From NCBI RefSeq assembly GCF_017873415.1, contig NZ_JAGGKD010000005.1, positions 124,001-188,000 of the forward strand: 64,000 nucleotides of DNA, written 5' to 3'. Below are positions 48,867-55,538 of the stretch, piece by piece; positions within the stretch are counted from its first letter, which is position 1, and each line of letters opens with the position of its first letter. The position numbers were made by a program, and so were the translations under genes. The notes beneath the pieces were generated by a model, which did not search any database, was not told the origin of the DNA, and saw only the letters and a list, made by a program, of their open reading frames with translations. The DNA comes from Methanolobus bombayensis (GTDB lineage Archaea; Halobacteriota; Methanosarcinia; Methanosarcinales; Methanosarcinaceae).

Positions 48867-48930
48867 TGAAAAACGTCCTATCCTTAAATCAACCTCTAAC
48901 ATCCATTGTATTTTTGATATGAGGACTAAC

Positions 48931-49125
48931 ATGAAAGTAAAACTCCCTTCCGGCAAGACTGAAGTAATAGATATGGAATCAGCAACAGTTGAGGAACTCC
49001 TTCAATATTTATCCATAAGTCAGGGAGAAGTACTTGTATCCAGGGACGGGCAGATAATTCCTGTAGACACAGTACTTAACAGAGAGGACAATATTCGTAT
49101 TATGCAGGTGGTTTTTGGTGGTTGA
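48931..49125 (+). CDS. Ubiquitin-like beta-grasp protein (ThiS/MoaD/SAMP type)
   Basis: This 64-residue protein has the beta-grasp pattern of sulfur carriers and ends in VVFGG, the C-terminal Gly-Gly that is adenylated and thiocarboxylated or conjugated. MKVKLPSGKTEV and ISQGEVLVSRDGQIIP match ThiS/MoaD-like strands. ATG 48931 is preferred over an in-frame ATG at 48919 because GAGGA lies just upstream. Its promoter carries CACAATTGTG operators, and an E1-like gene lies 550 bases downstream. Confidence 0.85.
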   Translation: MKVKLPSGKTEVIDMESATVEELLQYLSISQGEVLVSRDGQIIPVDTVLNREDNIRIMQVVFGG

Positions 49126-49137
49126 ACCTATTCTGGT

Positions 49138-49455
49138 TCAGACATTATTATTGACACATTGCTGTTCTTCGTCTCTTAATTGTTTACAAATACTGCAAAT
49201 TCTGGATGCCAGATCATCAACACGCTTTGCTTTCATATCTTCTGCAAGTTTACGTATGGATTCCTTTACATCATCTTCAAGCACAATTCTGTAGCCTCTT
49301 TTTTTAGACAGGTACTGTGAGACTGCAGAAGGAGCCATATCCAGCTCTTTAGCTATTTCCTGCTGTGATAGTCCGCAATTCATAAGTTCTTCTGCAATGG
49401 CTGCTCTAATCGCGGGTAATACGTCCCAGACTATCATCTGACATGGTAATTTCAT
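49138..49455 (-). CDS. XRE-type HTH regulator with C-terminal Cys pair
   Basis: This 105-residue protein begins with MKLPCQMIVWDVLPAIRAAI, then a helix-turn-helix at about 25-50 (GLSQQEIAKELDMAPSAVSQYLSKKRG), and ends with CSICKQL and a further Cys. It matches the archaeal COG2522 type. The CxxC and extra cysteines suggest metal, Fe-S or redox sensing. A GTG at 49464 is also in frame. Its own promoter has CACAATTGTG at 49502-49511, so it is probably an autoregulator and also controls the converging ubiquitin-like gene (inference). Confidence 0.85.
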   Translation of the reverse strand: MKLPCQMIVWDVLPAIRAAIAEELMNCGLSQQEIAKELDMAPSAVSQYLSKKRGYRIVLEDDVKESIRKLAEDMKAKRVDDLASRICSICKQLRDEEQQCVNNNV

Positions 49456-49501
49456 GATTTTCACTTTTTGTTGCTTTTTGGTTAGTAAATAGAAAACAAC
49501 T

Positions 49502-49511
49502 CACAATTGTG
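49502..49511 (-). promoter_or_regulatory. CACAATTGTG operator in the HTH regulator promoter
   Basis: This perfect copy of the palindrome sits directly downstream (in the minus direction) of an AATATATTC TATA-like box and about 47 bases before the regulator start codon, between box and predicted transcription start. This is the same geometry as in the ubiquitin-like gene promoter. Confidence 0.65.
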
Positions 49512-49675
49512 AATATATTCTTCATATTAAATATCTTTTTTTGAGTCCACCAAAATAATATCCTGCTACTGAATCGGAGTTCTGACCCTGTGGACTTATA
49601 TTATTTGACTACTTATGGACTTTACATAGGTCATTCATGAATTGAAGATTAAATCCATATTTAAGGGTACACTTT

Positions 49676-50416
49676 ATGTTAACTGATGAAGAACTTGAAA
49701 GGTACAGCAGGCAGATAATGCTTTTTGGTGAAGGCGGCCAGGAACGCTTAAAGGGAGCTACTGTTTTCATTGCAGGAGCAGGAGGTCTTGGCTGTCCCGT
49801 TTCTCTTTATCTTGCAGTTGCGGGAATTGGTAATCTGAGAATTGCAGACAAAGATGCAGTGGAAAAGACAAATCTCAACCGTCAGGTCCTTCACTGGGAA
49901 AAAGATATCGGCAAAGAAAAAGTAGGGTCTGTGGAGGAAAAACTCAGGATGATCAATCCTCATATCAACGTTCAATCATTTCATCTGACTATAGATGAAT
50001 CAAATATAATGGAGCTTGTGGACGATGCAGACCTAATAGTTGATGCCATGGACAATTATGAGGTGCGCTATCTTTTGAATAAGATTGCCCATGAGAAAAA
50101 CATCCCACTGGTTCATGGTGCCATTCGTGGTTTTGATGGCCAGGCCATGACGATCATTCCTGGAAAAAGTGCATGTTTTAATTGTGTATTCCCTTGTGAA
50201 CCACCATCAGAAACCTTTCCGGTGGTAGGTGTAACTCCTGGGATCATTGCAATGATACAGGCAAATGAGGTTCTCAAATACCTGTTGGGAAAGGGCAGGC
50301 TTCTGACAGACAGGTTAATGATATGGGATGGGCTCAATTCTGAAATGGAATACATGCGCGTTTCAAAAAGACAGGAATGCAGAATATGTGGAAATGGTGA
50401 TGCAGGTCATGGCTGA
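49676..50416 (+). CDS. ThiF/MoeB/HesA-family E1-like enzyme
   Basis: This 246-residue protein activates ubiquitin-like sulfur carriers by C-terminal adenylation. Visible are RYSRQIMLFGEGGQERL, the ATP-binding GAGGLGCPVSLYLAVAGIG, the arginine finger region NLNRQVLHW, and DAMDNYEVRYLLN. Zinc-ribbon cysteines lie in CFNCVFPC (the CxxC pair) and CRICG. Its carrier partner could be the 64-residue protein at 48931. TATA-like TTATATTATT lies about 80 bases upstream. Confidence 0.92.
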   Translation: MLTDEELERYSRQIMLFGEGGQERLKGATVFIAGAGGLGCPVSLYLAVAGIGNLRIADKDAVEKTNLNRQVLHWEKDIGKEKVGSVEEKLRMINPHINVQSFHLTIDESNIMELVDDADLIVDAMDNYEVRYLLNKIAHEKNIPLVHGAIRGFDGQAMTIIPGKSACFNCVFPCEPPSETFPVVGVTPGIIAMIQANEVLKYLLGKGRLLTDRLMIWDGLNSEMEYMRVSKRQECRICGNGDAGHG

Positions 50417-50594
50417 AATCCCTTACTGTTTAATTTACACTTAATTCTCAAACTTTGAATGCTCACAAATACGTGCTTACCTTAAATTGATCTATTTTTC
50501 AGATAAGCAGAATATTTTAGTTGGTTAATTATTATTTTAATAAAATATTTATATAATTTGACCGCATAAATGATTCATACTAGGTGGTGAGTCT

Positions 50595-51254
50595 ATAACC
50601 GGTGATAACTCTAATGCAAAGGATGCCAGGGATTTTGAAGATGCTCTTTTGTCCTTGAACAGGGTTGCTGCACATCAAATGATATGTAGTAAATTCACAG
50701 GTGACAATGCCTTTGAACTTATAAGGAACATCATTGCACCAGCTCTTGAAAATATAGGAGATATGTGGAACTGTGGTGAAATTGCCCTGTCACAGGAGTA
50801 TATGGCAAGTAAGATGTGTGAGGTAATTGTTGAAGACATCCTTCCTTCAGAGAGTTCTTCCAGAAAGAATCAGCCTATTCTGGGAATCACAACCCTTGGG
50901 GATGAACACATGTTAGGCAAACGAATAGTCATTTCATTCCTCAAATCCTGTGGTTTTGATGTTCACGATTATGGTGATATGGCTCCTGAGAATGTTGTCC
51001 GCAAAATAGCTGAAGATAATGTTCAGGTTATCCTGGTTTCAACATTAATGCTTAATTTTGCACATGAGGTCAAGAAGCTCAGATCAATTCTCGAAAGTAA
51101 TGGCTCTGGTACCAAAATAATAGTAGGAGGTGCTCCATTTATGTTCGATCCTGATCTGTGGAGGGAAGTAGGTGCCCATGCAATGGCAAATGATGCAACA
51201 GAGTCTCTTGACGTTATATGCAAATTAATGGGGGGTAATACCTGTGTCAACTGA
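50595..51254 (+). CDS. Corrinoid protein (methyltransferase cognate, MtbC/MtaC-like)
   Basis: This protein of about 219 residues has a helical cap domain (about 15-95, LIRNIIAPALENIGDMW and ALSQEYMASK) and a B12-binding Rossmann domain (about 100-215). The cobalt-ligand motif is DEHMLG, i.e. D-x-H-x-x-G, followed by the S-x-L loop STLMLN and the GGAP motif. It carries methyl groups between methyltransferases. The first conventional start is TTG 50649, which would cut the first cap helix. GGTGGTGA at 50583-50590 lies four bases before an in-frame ATA at 50595, which restores the helix and is used here. It overlaps the downstream methyltransferase gene. Confidence 0.88.
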   Translation: MTGDNSNAKDARDFEDALLSLNRVAAHQMICSKFTGDNAFELIRNIIAPALENIGDMWNCGEIALSQEYMASKMCEVIVEDILPSESSSRKNQPILGITTLGDEHMLGKRIVISFLKSCGFDVHDYGDMAPENVVRKIAEDNVQVILVSTLMLNFAHEVKKLRSILESNGSGTKIIVGGAPFMFDPDLWREVGAHAMANDATESLDVICKLMGGNTCVN

Positions 51255-52284
51255 AGAGATGAGCTCCATGGAAAGAGTTCTCACAACACTGGACCACAGG
51301 GAACCTGACATAGTTCCTTATTTTCTGTTATTGACAACGCAGGGTGCAAAGGAATTTGATGTTTCCATTGAGAAATACTTCTCTGATCCCGAGATGGTTG
51401 CATCTGCCCAGATAAGTATGCAAAAGAAATATGGTCATGATTGTTATTATTCATTTTATTACGCATCACTTGAACTTGAGTCATGGGGTGGGAACACTGT
51501 TTTCTATCCGGATGCATCTCCAAATTGTGGCCTGCCGCTTATCCATGACATCAATGATATTTCTTCCCTTGAAGCACCTGACGTATATGAGTCTCCTGGG
51601 TTGCAAAAGGTTCTGAAAACAACGTCTATATTAAAGGAACATGCAGGAACAGATATTCCTATAATAGGTGTTGTCATGTCTCCTTTTGCCCTGCCTTCAA
51701 TGCAAATGGGAATGGATCATTATTTTGATCTTATCTATGAAGACCCGGACATTTTTGAAGAATTAATGGATATAAACAAACAATTCTGCATTCAGTGGGC
51801 AAATGCACAACTGGAGGCAGGTGCCACAGCTATCTGTTATTTTGATCCCATTTCTTCTTCTACAATAATTCCTCCTGAACTTTACAGGAAAACCGGATTT
51901 AAAGTCGCAAAAAGTACTCTTCACGGAATAAAAGGACCCACTGCAACTCATATGGCATCAGGAAGATGTCTTCCCATAATCAAAGATATTATCAAAACAG
52001 GAACTTCAATAGTATGTACAAGTGTTCTGGAAGATCTTGCTGAGGTAAAAAAGGAATGTTATGGTAAAATATCTGTTCTTGGAAATCTCAATGGTATAAA
52101 AATGCGCCACTGGTCTCTGGAAGATACTGAAAGTAAAGTAAAGGAGGCTATTGATAAGGCTGCTTCAGGTGGGGGTTACATTCTGTCGGACAACCACGGT
52201 GAAATCCCATACACAGTTCCGTCCTCTGTAATAAATGAAATTTCTCGTTCTGTAAGAAAATGGGGATATTATCGGAGTAACTAA
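51244..52284 (+). CDS. UroD/MtaA-family methyltransferase lacking the usual Zn-Cys ligands
   Basis: This 346-residue TIM-barrel protein resembles methylcobamide:coenzyme M methyltransferases (MtaA/MtbA) and uroporphyrinogen decarboxylase relatives: ERVLTTLDHREPDIVPYF at the start, LEAGATAICYFDPISSS and TGTSIVCTSVLEDLAEVKK. In MtaA/MtbA zinc is held by H-x-C and a later Cys. Here the first site reads H236-M-A and the last reads D-N-H318-G-E, so both Cys are missing. It may therefore act on something other than coenzyme M, or serve as a sensor partner. The GTG start overlaps the corrinoid gene; the stop overlaps the kinase start by one base. Confidence 0.85.
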   Translation: MSTEEMSSMERVLTTLDHREPDIVPYFLLLTTQGAKEFDVSIEKYFSDPEMVASAQISMQKKYGHDCYYSFYYASLELESWGGNTVFYPDASPNCGLPLIHDINDISSLEAPDVYESPGLQKVLKTTSILKEHAGTDIPIIGVVMSPFALPSMQMGMDHYFDLIYEDPDIFEELMDINKQFCIQWANAQLEAGATAICYFDPISSSTIIPPELYRKTGFKVAKSTLHGIKGPTATHMASGRCLPIIKDIIKTGTSIVCTSVLEDLAEVKKECYGKISVLGNLNGIKMRHWSLEDTESKVKEAIDKAASGGGYILSDNHGEIPYTVPSSVINEISRSVRKWGYYRSN

Positions 52285-53972
52285 TGTTTCGTAATCACCA
52301 AGTTCTTGCACCGGATTGTATCAGGGAAGAGGTAGAGCAGGTTCTAAATGCTAATGTCCTGTTCAAGGGGATCAAATATTCATTTTTTGACTATCTGGAA
52401 GATTTTGGAGATTTTGAATCAATTTTCGAAGTAAGCCGGGGAATAATAACATCCGGAAATAACATTCTTCTTATATGCAATAATCCCTGCCCTGAATTTG
52501 AAATTCCTGATGAATATTCCCAATCTTTGAAGATAAGAAGGGTGAATCATCTTTATTCTCTTTTTACTGAAGAACTTGTATTGGAAAAACACAGGAAAAA
52601 TGATGCTTTTTTTGTATCCCCGGGCTGGTTTGAATGCTGGGAGAAGAATCTGATATCTACAGGTCTTTATGAATCGGGTAAAGGTGATCAATTTCTGGAG
52701 TCATATTCTCATGTTCTAGTAATGGATACAGGCCTACATCCAAATTTACTCGCTCATGCAGACGAGTTTTCAAGAGTAACAGGTATTCCCTATAAGGTAA
52801 TTTACGTAGGAATGGATTATTTCAAATTATCCTTTGAGAATTTGCTATTCAAATGGAACATTAAAAAGAAACATGATGAACTAAAGGTCTGTAAAAGACA
52901 ATCTGCAACATATGCCATGTCGCTGGATTTCATAAAATCACTTGCTGATATGAACGATGAAGCTGCAACTATAGAAGCTATTTGTAACCTTTTCAGCATG
53001 ATGTTTGCTCCTCGTTATGTTGTTTACTATTCTGTAAATGGTGAAAGTATGGAGTTTGCATATTGCAAACCGACTAATACTGAACAAAAAGCCATTTTTA
53101 AGTTGAAGGATTCAGATTCCAGTCATTTTGTTTTTGAAAAAGGGGATGGCTTTGCAATAAAAATACAAATGTCAGGTGATCTTCTCGGTATAATTGAAAT
53201 CCGTGAAATTGCCTTACCTGAAAACATGGATGAATATCTCAGTATAGCTTATGATATTGCAAAAGCAGCAAGTCTGGCTATATCCAACATAAGAAGATAT
53301 TATGAGCTCTTCGAATCAAAAGAAGAACAAGCAAAACTTGCTGAATTACTTCGAACCACAAACAGTATTTTGAGACATGATATTGCTAACAATTTACAGG
53401 TTATAACCATGGCTCTTGATCTTCTGGAAGAAAAAGGAGATAGTTCTTATATATCAATGATAAGGAATGCTACGAAAAAAAGTGCTTTGCTCATAACCAG
53501 CGTTAAAGGACTTGATATGAACTCTTCAGGGCGATGTGATCTGGAAGTTGTTAATGTCAAGCAAGTTCTTGAGTCATCAATGAACAGGCATGATGTGGAA
53601 TTTACTATGGAGGGCAATTGTAATGTTATGGCTGATCAGGCACTATTGTCGGTATTCGATAATATTGTAAGTAATGCAATTTCTCATGGAAAAGCCACTG
53701 AGGTAAAAATCAAAGTTGCAAAATTGAATGGTCGCTGCCAGATTTCAATTGCTGATAATGGAAAGGGTATTCCTGATAGTGTAAAACCCTATATTTTCAA
53801 TGAAGGATTCATACATGGTGAGGCAGGAAATACGGGAATAGGTCTCTTTGTAAGCAAAAAAACGATTGAGCGCTACAATGGTTGCATTCGTGTTGAAGAT
53901 AATGTACCTTCAGGTGCCAGATTTATTGTTGAACTGGATCTTGTAAATCCAAAAGGTAGTTCTGGCAACTAA
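52284..53972 (+). CDS. DUF1638-like/GAF-like histidine kinase
   Basis: This 562-residue soluble protein starts with a DUF1638-like domain at about 1-195 (VSPGWFECWEKNLISTGLY, VMDTGLHPNL), a family that occurs beside corrinoid methyltransferase genes. A GAF-like region covers about 205-340. HisKA has H365 in SILRHDIANNLQVI, and HATPase_c spans about 440-552 (DNIVSNAISHG, DNGKGIPD, NTGIGLFVSKK). There is no membrane helix. TAATG overlap with the methyltransferase gene implies tight coupling. It may sense corrinoid or methylation state (inference). The kinase core is close to that of the next gene. Confidence 0.8.
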   Translation: MFRNHQVLAPDCIREEVEQVLNANVLFKGIKYSFFDYLEDFGDFESIFEVSRGIITSGNNILLICNNPCPEFEIPDEYSQSLKIRRVNHLYSLFTEELVLEKHRKNDAFFVSPGWFECWEKNLISTGLYESGKGDQFLESYSHVLVMDTGLHPNLLAHADEFSRVTGIPYKVIYVGMDYFKLSFENLLFKWNIKKKHDELKVCKRQSATYAMSLDFIKSLADMNDEAATIEAICNLFSMMFAPRYVVYYSVNGESMEFAYCKPTNTEQKAIFKLKDSDSSHFVFEKGDGFAIKIQMSGDLLGIIEIREIALPENMDEYLSIAYDIAKAASLAISNIRRYYELFESKEEQAKLAELLRTTNSILRHDIANNLQVITMALDLLEEKGDSSYISMIRNATKKSALLITSVKGLDMNSSGRCDLEVVNVKQVLESSMNRHDVEFTMEGNCNVMADQALLSVFDNIVSNAISHGKATEVKIKVAKLNGRCQISIADNGKGIPDSVKPYIFNEGFIHGEAGNTGIGLFVSKKTIERYNGCIRVEDNVPSGARFIVELDLVNPKGSSGN

Positions 53973-54059
53973 TGTTTTTTCAACAGTGTATCAACAAACT
54001 GTTCTTGCAACACTTCTTATAATATAATAACAGTGTTTAATATGGGTTTTGTGTAACAA

Positions 54060-55538
54060 ATGCGGGTTTGGCTTATGAATTTGAAAAATTTATGTGGTCT
54101 TTATTCTGAAACGATCATTGTAATTCTGTTAATCCTAAGTTTGTATCTTACAAGCCTTGAAAGTTATCTCTTATTTCACAGCATAGTTGAACTTGTAAGT
54201 ATAATAGTTATTGTTGCTGTTTTTTTAATCACATGGAACTCAAAGAAATACCTGAAGAATTCATATCTTCTGTTTATCGGAATAAGTTTCTTCTTTGTAG
54301 CATGGATTGATTTTCTACATACATTAAGTTATAAGGGAATGGGAATTTTTCCAGGCAATGATTCAAACCTGCCTACTCAGTTATGGATCGCTGCCAGGTA
54401 TATGCAGAGTATTTCACTTTTGATTGCTCCAATTGCAATGGGAAAAAAGTTCAATTATCAAAAAGTCCTGGCTATATATTTTGCAGTTACTTCTTTGGTT
54501 ATAGCAGTTATCTTTAAGGGTTATTTCCCGGATTGTTACATTGAAGGGAGTGGTCTGACCACTTGTAAAGTCATCAGTGAGTACATTATATCTTTGATAT
54601 TGATTGGTTCAGCCACATTACTTCACAGGCATAAGGATGAATTTGACAACAAGGTTTACAGTTTGATCATGGCTTCTATCGTTCTCACGATATTTTCAGA
54701 ACTTACCTTCACCTTTTACATAGATGTCTATGGTTTTTCAAATCTGGTTGGTCATTTCCTCAAACTGTTTTCATTCTATCTGATTTATAAGGCGATAGTT
54801 GTTACAAGTCTTGCCAGACCATATGACCTTCTCTACAGGGAACTTAAGATGAGGGAATATGATCTCATAAAAAAGAAAAAAGATCAGGATGATCTGCTGG
54901 AAACACTTGGTCTTGTGAATAAGATACTGAGACATGATGTTCTAAATGACCTTAATATTATTTCACTTTTAATTGAAAATCTCAAAGGCAGGATGGACGA
55001 AAAAGAACTTGATCTCTCAGAAAATGCTGTTGCACACAGTCTTAAACTCATAAACGAAATGAAGGATTTTGAGTCCCTCATACGCGTCAGGGAATTAATG
55101 ACAATTGATCTTCGTTTACTTGCATTGGAAGTCTCACAAGAGTTCCCTGCAAATATAAAAGTATCCGGTCATTGTAGTGTAAAAGCAGACAGTGGTCTTC
55201 ATTCAGTAATTGGTAATATTGTACAGAATGCTATTATGCATGGTGGAGCAGAAAATATTAATATAGATATTATCTCTGATGGGGAATATTGTGAAATGCA
55301 CATATCTGATGATGGTAGTGGAATACCGGATAAAATAAAAGATCGTATTTTTGATGAAGGATTCAAGTTTGGTAAATCTGGACATACTGGTCTGGGACTG
55401 TATATTTCAAAAAAGATTATTGAAAGATATGGTGATATATCTGTAGAAGATAACATTCCTTCAGGAGCAACTTTTATTATTAGATTTTTTAACAATGAGT
55501 CAAATAAGGAATTTAAAGAAAACTTTATACAAAAATAA
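54060..55538 (+). CDS. MASE3-domain membrane histidine kinase
   Basis: This 492-residue protein has a MASE3 membrane sensor (about 15-255): SIVELVSIIVIVAVFLITWNS, WIDFLHTLSYKGMGIFP and NLPTQLWIAARYMQSISLL. A short coiled segment precedes HisKA with the His in KILRHDVLNDLNII and HATPase_c (NIVQNAIMHGG, DDGSGIPDKIK, HTGLGLYISKK). The kinase core is strongly similar to the preceding gene (IPD...IF.EGF, ERY, VEDN.PSGA.FI), a local duplication of the kinase half. The MASE3 ligand is unknown. An ATG at 54075 is also possible. Confidence 0.9.
   Translation: MRVWLMNLKNLCGLYSETIIVILLILSLYLTSLESYLLFHSIVELVSIIVIVAVFLITWNSKKYLKNSYLLFIGISFFFVAWIDFLHTLSYKGMGIFPGNDSNLPTQLWIAARYMQSISLLIAPIAMGKKFNYQKVLAIYFAVTSLVIAVIFKGYFPDCYIEGSGLTTCKVISEYIISLILIGSATLLHRHKDEFDNKVYSLIMASIVLTIFSELTFTFYIDVYGFSNLVGHFLKLFSFYLIYKAIVVTSLARPYDLLYRELKMREYDLIKKKKDQDDLLETLGLVNKILRHDVLNDLNIISLLIENLKGRMDEKELDLSENAVAHSLKLINEMKDFESLIRVRELMTIDLRLLALEVSQEFPANIKVSGHCSVKADSGLHSVIGNIVQNAIMHGGAENINIDIISDGEYCEMHISDDGSGIPDKIKDRIFDEGFKFGKSGHTGLGLYISKKIIERYGDISVEDNIPSGATFIIRFFNNESNKEFKENFIQK

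Follow-up and report, generated by a model that had tools for sequence, protein, structure and literature searches.

A corrinoid protein, a UroD-fold protein and a DUF1638-GAF signalling protein as a probable sensory module with exchangeable outputs

In the 3.12 Mb genome of Methanolobus bombayensis, a stretch of 64,000 nucleotides (contig NZ_JAGGKD010000005.1, positions 124,001 to 188,000; hereafter the window) carries three same-strand genes, named here COR (a predicted corrinoid-binding protein), UROD (a UroD-fold methyltransferase-like protein) and KIN (a DUF1638-GAF-histidine kinase). As a first-pass annotation of this DNA had claimed (10-11 bases and one base), the genes overlap at both junctions, COR with UROD by 11 bases (51244-51254) and UROD with KIN by a single base (52284). 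The triad, COR followed by UROD and by a third protein with a DUF1638-GAF region and an output, occurs in archaea and in about ten bacterial phyla, and judging from its sequences and gene context it is very probably a sensory module. The fuller proposal, that the module is self-contained and that its DUF1638-GAF region reads COR and feeds an exchangeable output, we consider probable.

The triad is conserved as a unit. In the Methanosarcinaceae, nearly all full-length KIN homologues inspected, including one in Methanosarcina, directly follow COR and UROD in surroundings that differ; the exception is a kinase (locus L057, 7998-10391) with about 190 extra residues inside its DUF1638 domain and no adjacent COR or UROD. 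The triad is also present at 11/11 further archaeal loci fetched from other families. When the UROD alignment was scanned against 85,000 species genomes, 264 relatives were recovered, the best 80 of which (54-77% identity) range from Methanolobus through the bacterial phyla, with hosts in the Desulfobacterota, Nitrospirota, Chloroflexi, Riflebacteria, Aminicenantes, SAR324, Magnetococcales, Gammaproteobacteria, Betaproteobacteria, Bacteroidota, Verrucomicrobiota and Firmicutes. At 103 UROD loci, a set in which some genomes are counted twice via two collections, COR lies upstream in 100 and a DUF1638/GAF gene downstream in 98, the exceptions being mostly contig ends or merged frames. The conserved linkage of DUF1638-kinases with corrinoid genes anticipated by the first-pass annotation is thus found in relatives, and it includes the UroD-fold protein. 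In an independent check with UROD alone, 29 of 393 genomes of the host phylum carry it, and the 11 archaeal loci from other families were drawn in this way. In a tree, the URODs of the triad group together on a long stem; the Methanosarcinaceae make up one branch and the remaining archaea fall at several points, a topology of weak backbone support that is consistent with transfer between domains. Two variants were also seen: a gammaproteobacterial symbiont (locus L152) has two successive COR-UROD pairs followed by one sensor protein, and one methanogen genus (loci L060, L061, L062 and L070) has apparently decaying modules, with a kinase that lacks DUF1638 and a UROD that is missing in one genome and, in two others, interrupted near residue 86.

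Several lines of evidence argue for a sensor. Among 39 third proteins, DUF1638 is found in 35 (E 1e-3), a kinase ATPase domain in 29, REC in 8 and GGDEF in 7; because DUF1638 is nearly constant while the other domains vary, the third protein appears to combine a constant input with exchanged outputs, which are swapped among triads between histidine kinase, hybrid kinase and GGDEF. Across 29 loci (bacteria and one Methanomicrobiales), COR, UROD, DUF1638 and GAF show mutually correlated pairwise distances (r 0.56-0.72), versus r 0.19-0.30 with the kinase domain: by this measure, the input parts co-evolve, unlike the kinase domain. Each of ten genomes tested holds one copy of the module, its UROD scoring about 570-660 bits and the next UroD protein 140 or less. 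RACo/RamA is present in five of eight module-bearing genomes and was found in none of the other three (Thiocapsa, Rhodocyclaceae and Methylobacter), which also have no DUF1638 beyond the sensor's own; in the latter two, the B12-binding_2 proteins are one MetH-sized protein and COR only, and in Desulfonema magnum COR is the only one. Absences from draft genomes could be assembly gaps, but the genome of Desulfonema magnum is complete. On these counts, the usual catabolic methyl pathway is unavailable to the module in those genomes, and by gene content the module stands outside any catabolic pathway in some of its hosts. Its neighbours point in the same direction: 56 same-strand neighbours scanned in bacteria include REC in 34 and kinase ATPase domains in 27, and when the neighbours were annotated for a stimulus they proved to be mainly signalling proteins, with no common metabolic gene and with no cobalamin-related gene standing out among those scanned. 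Swapped outputs, conservation of the unit and autonomy from methyl pathways therefore support what had been proposed from the window alone, a sensor and not a catabolic pathway.

COR consists of a B12-binding_2 cap and a B12-binding domain (Pfam). Since the D-x-H-x-x-G motif is kept in 79/79 CORs, base-off/His-on corrinoid binding is likely; H105 (the lower-axial His) and the cap tryptophan W58 are invariant, the catabolic corrinoid proteins of the Methanolobus genome having Phe or Tyr at the latter position. Among solved structures, the best match to the cap profile is CarH (E 1.6e-4), with a methylamine corrinoid protein further down (E 0.07). CarH His132 is a cobalt ligand in the light state (PMC10442372); its position corresponds to COR position 59 and is Glu or Gln in 60/79 CORs. 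The ATA start of COR at 50595 is credible because orthologues have start codons in the same alignment column (ATG 11, ATA 6 including the window, ATT 1, TTG 2, GTC 1) and GGTGGT lies upstream of 7/7 ATA/ATT starts; besides the window, five Methanolobus orthologues start with ATA and one with ATT. Such a start could possibly serve translational control. A tandem second COR was observed at one locus (L050, 11608-12267 and 10773-11414), its DXHXXG changed to DEFLLG with loss of the axial His, in a genome that also holds two separate modules.

UROD belongs to the Pfam URO-D family, and its AF2 model (pLDDT 89.7) has MtaA as closest solved fold (4ay8/4ay7, TM 0.86). The zinc-binding His-Cys-Cys of thiol methyltransferases is nevertheless missing in 69/69 triad URODs compared, and a His...His site is conserved instead: the MtaA ligands His-x-Cys and Cys become His236-x-Ala (H-x-A/S type) and His318, the latter aligning with the GHG His of uroporphyrinogen decarboxylase, while the intact UroD paralogues of the Methanolobus genome retain H-x-C ... 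C. Because of this altered site, an ordinary MtaA-type methyltransferase was rejected. H236, C198, D201, D316, N317 and H318 are strongly conserved, which suggests a specific ligand or chemistry. In the UroD superfamily, S-methyltransferases carry His-Cys-Cys and O-methyltransferases vary (PMC10418091), and a barrel methyltransferase that lacks zinc is known for chloromethane (CdmB, with UroD rooting its tree; PMC13222342). Taken together, loss of the zinc site and these precedents make action on thiols unlikely, but UROD could still move a methyl group.

In KIN, the DUF1638-like N-terminus suspected at first reading was recovered by PF07796 above its cut-off (E 1.5e-8, 35.1 bits against 27), the Pfam match spanning only residues 101-181; alignment with stand-alone DUF1638 proteins and bacterial sensors extends the homology to about residues 1-200. 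The fusion of DUF1638 to a kinase was thus correctly described, but a GAF-fold domain at about residues 205-345 had been overlooked. Foldseek searches with an AF2 model of residues 1-345 (pLDDT 88.9) return GAF domains, among them the one in KdpD (TM 0.73, normalised to target length); these matches cover the GAF part, and no structural match was found for the DUF1638 domain. The H-box is present, with H365, D366 and N369 invariant in 19 orthologues. Stand-alone DUF1638 proteins and bacterial sensors have the motifs TPxW..WR and DTG in common; the conserved cysteines of the stand-alone proteins (isC, GLCG, DDC) are kept in bacterial sensors and lost in KIN and other Methanosarcinaceae. Genetics tie stand-alone DUF1638 to B12 reactivation in Phaeobacter (PMC5764234; echoed in PMC12478193), and in the triad the domain probably assists in docking or servicing COR. 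A 950-codon frame containing DUF1638 was seen in Desulfocicer (locus L177).

DUF1638 is dispensable in part of the family. The GAF domain is kept without it in 18/98 modules, among them those of a Desulfotignum group and of a methanogen genus whose module appears to be decaying, and no DUF1638-like segment was found anywhere in the fetched loci of these 18. Of the two receiver domains GAF is thus the more constant, and DUF1638 as sole reader was rejected as a general rule; the initial proposal that the methylation state of the corrinoid protein is read through DUF1638 is weakened by this, and also by the loss of the shared cysteines in the Methanosarcinaceae domains and of the zinc ligands in UROD. 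Reading of a methyl state through DUF1638 is still plausible. The MASE3 kinase that follows KIN in the window was described as having a nearly identical kinase half, which overstated a 40% identity with KIN over residues 337-550. This kinase was rejected as a member of the system: it is absent from several Methanolobus modules and was not seen behind the triad in the other lineages inspected.

How might such a module work? We hypothesize that COR and the zinc-site-less UROD jointly form a receptor in which the UROD barrel would bind a small molecule or methyl group, or transfer it, and the cobalt state (upper ligand or oxidation state) would be set thereby. This state would open or close the COR cap, whose conformation would be read by the DUF1638-GAF region of the third protein and passed to the output, the soluble histidine kinase (His365) in the window and a hybrid kinase or diguanylate cyclase elsewhere. 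We infer both that COR, UROD and KIN make physical contact and that the cobalt state is the signal. Some observations weigh against the proposal. Mean column identity is highest in UROD (77%, versus 57% for COR and 54% for KIN), which is what an active enzyme would show; DUF1638 cannot be required for reading in every module, since 18 lack it; and some phylum assignments may be binning errors, while several absences come from metagenome-assembled genomes.

The nature of the stimulus is more delicate. A methyl donor is a tentative candidate, somewhat short of an even chance, with redox/oxygen or free cobamide as alternatives. The corresponding scheme, in which zinc-less UROD would load methyl groups on COR or remove them and DUF1638-GAF would read the cobalt state and pass it to the output of the lineage, is put forward with slightly greater reserve. 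If true, this would be a signal input of a new class, with methyl-corrinoid serving to carry information and not as an intermediate of metabolism. Alternatively, COR may cycle between cob(I), cob(II) and cob(III) as a redox or oxygen sensor, UROD gating the cobalt or holding the cap with no methyl donor involved. The hosts are anaerobes plus sulfur oxidisers and methanotrophs at redox boundaries, the zinc ligands are gone from every UROD compared, the three genomes without RACo could hardly reset a methylating cob(I) cycle, and cobalt redox state drives the CarH ligand switch (PMC10442372). However, the conserved UROD residues suggest a specific ligand or chemistry, and the genetics linking DUF1638 to corrinoid reactivation (PMC5764234) suit a methyl-transfer cycle as well; on balance, we consider redox sensing rather unlikely.

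That COR and UROD are instead a catabolic pair, transferring methyl groups from a donor to the corrinoid while KIN regulates by their substrate, appears improbable. Such a pair would account for the high conservation of UROD, has a precedent in zinc-free barrel methyltransferases for corrinoid proteins such as CdmB (PMC13222342), and would suit Methanolobus, a methanogen that uses methyl compounds and has many further corrinoid proteins; but the unit holds no second methyltransferase or corrinoid reductase, some module genomes have neither RACo nor a further DUF1638 and contain no more than one additional UroD protein, of weak similarity, the same input domains are joined to different outputs on the third gene, and the flanking genes are for signalling and not for C1 metabolism. 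Only a little less credit goes to a sensor of cobamide availability, in which COR and UROD would bind free corrinoid and report its presence. The COR motif is complete, and the UroD fold also handles tetrapyrroles (HemE). Yet corrinoid proteins abound in the Methanolobus genome, so that a dedicated sensor with a methyltransferase-like partner exceeds the need, and cobalamin-related genes are not prominent nearby. Least probable is a B12 photoreceptor like CarH or the photocobilins, with light splitting the cobalt-carbon bond: the COR cap is closest to CarH among solved structures and has the invariant Trp, but the His that makes the light-state bond (PMC10442372) is mostly replaced, many hosts come from sediment or groundwater and CarH has no UroD partner.

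The features of the window are collected in Table 1. Directly upstream of COR and outside the unit lie a ThiS/SAMP2-like small modifier and a ThiF/UbaA-like E1 enzyme (48919-50416).

Table 1. The COR-UROD-KIN genes and associated features, in window coordinates
Feature	Position	Strand	Basis or remark
Shine-Dalgarno-like GGTGGTGA before COR start	50583..50590	+	Sequence; GGTGGT ahead of orthologue ATA/ATT starts
COR, corrinoid-binding protein (predicted), 219 residues, ATA start	50595..51254	+	Pfam B12-binding_2 + B12-binding
COR Trp58, cap tryptophan, at position of CarH Trp131	50766..50768	+	Invariant, 79/79 CORs
COR DEHMLG (DXHXXG), lower-axial-His corrinoid motif	50901..50918	+	D-x-H-x-x-G in 79/79 CORs
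UROD, UroD-fold methyltransferase-like protein, 346 aa, GTG start	51244..52284	+	PF01208, E 1.5e-52; AF2 model
UROD H236-M-A-S-G, altered zinc site, part 1	51949..51963	+	H-x-C in MtaA
UROD D316-N-H-G-E-I-P, altered site, part 2	52189..52209	+	G-C-G in MtaA; G-H-G in HemE
KIN, DUF1638-GAF-histidine kinase, 562 aa	52284..53972	+	
KIN DUF1638-type N-terminal domain, residues 1-200	52284..52883	+	Pfam match at 52584-52826
KIN GAF-fold domain, residues 205-345	52896..53318	+	AF2 model and Foldseek GAF matches
KIN histidine kinase core, residues 346-555, phospho-acceptor His365 in LRHDIANN	53319..53948	+	HATPase_c 1e-19
MASE3 membrane histidine kinase	54060..55538	+	Pfam MASE3 + HATPase_c; frequent Methanolobus neighbour, outside conserved unit

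No description of a COR-UroD-kinase system was found in the open-access literature, subscription papers lying outside the search. The component families are known, but a stand-alone corrinoid input module that swaps outputs matches no known kind that we can name. So far, B12 proteins have been known as enzymes and, in CarH-type proteins, as light sensors; the triad would be a general chemosensory system in which one corrinoid protein and one methyltransferase-fold protein feed exchangeable outputs, in methanogens, sulfate reducers, sulfur oxidisers, methanotrophs and many uncultured lineages. Annotation at family level would mask it under names like uroporphyrinogen decarboxylase, cobalamin-binding protein and DUF1638. 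With the triad recognized, DUF1638 gains a testable role and sensing through B12 in anaerobes becomes a directly approachable question.

Comparison with known systems brings out what is shared and what is new. (i), MtaA/MtbA with MtaC/MtbC likewise combine a UroD fold with a DXHXXG corrinoid protein, but MtaA/MtbA have His-Cys-Cys where triad URODs have His-x-Ala ... His, and the COR-UROD-KIN unit is tied by its operon to a variable signalling protein, with no MT1 or reductase. (ii), Type 1 mlp clusters also pair a UroD-fold protein with an adjacent corrinoid protein in many organisms; unlike the triad, they hold several His-Cys-Cys methyltransferases and a RACE protein, and the terms "histidine kinase" and "signal" are absent from the paper describing them (PMC10418091). 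(iii), the domain of the stand-alone DUF1638 reactivation partners (PF07796) is the N-terminus of KIN, where, in contrast to those partners, it is fused to GAF and, in KIN-type proteins generally, to signalling outputs. (iv), MsmS and RdmS are, like KIN, soluble methanogen sensor kinases linked to methyl metabolism, a parallel drawn in the first-pass annotation that is loose only: these kinases lack the H-box (PMC11784639) that KIN carries with His365, and KIN is tied to COR and UROD. (v), CarH and the B12-dependent photoreceptors resemble COR in the cap and B12-binding domain, the cap Trp (131) and the lower-axial His (177), and the sensory role of CarH is the one proposed here for COR. CarH, however, has a DNA-binding domain, which a Pfam search did not find in COR, and His132, which is not kept as His, whereas COR has a UroD-fold partner and places its output on a separate protein.

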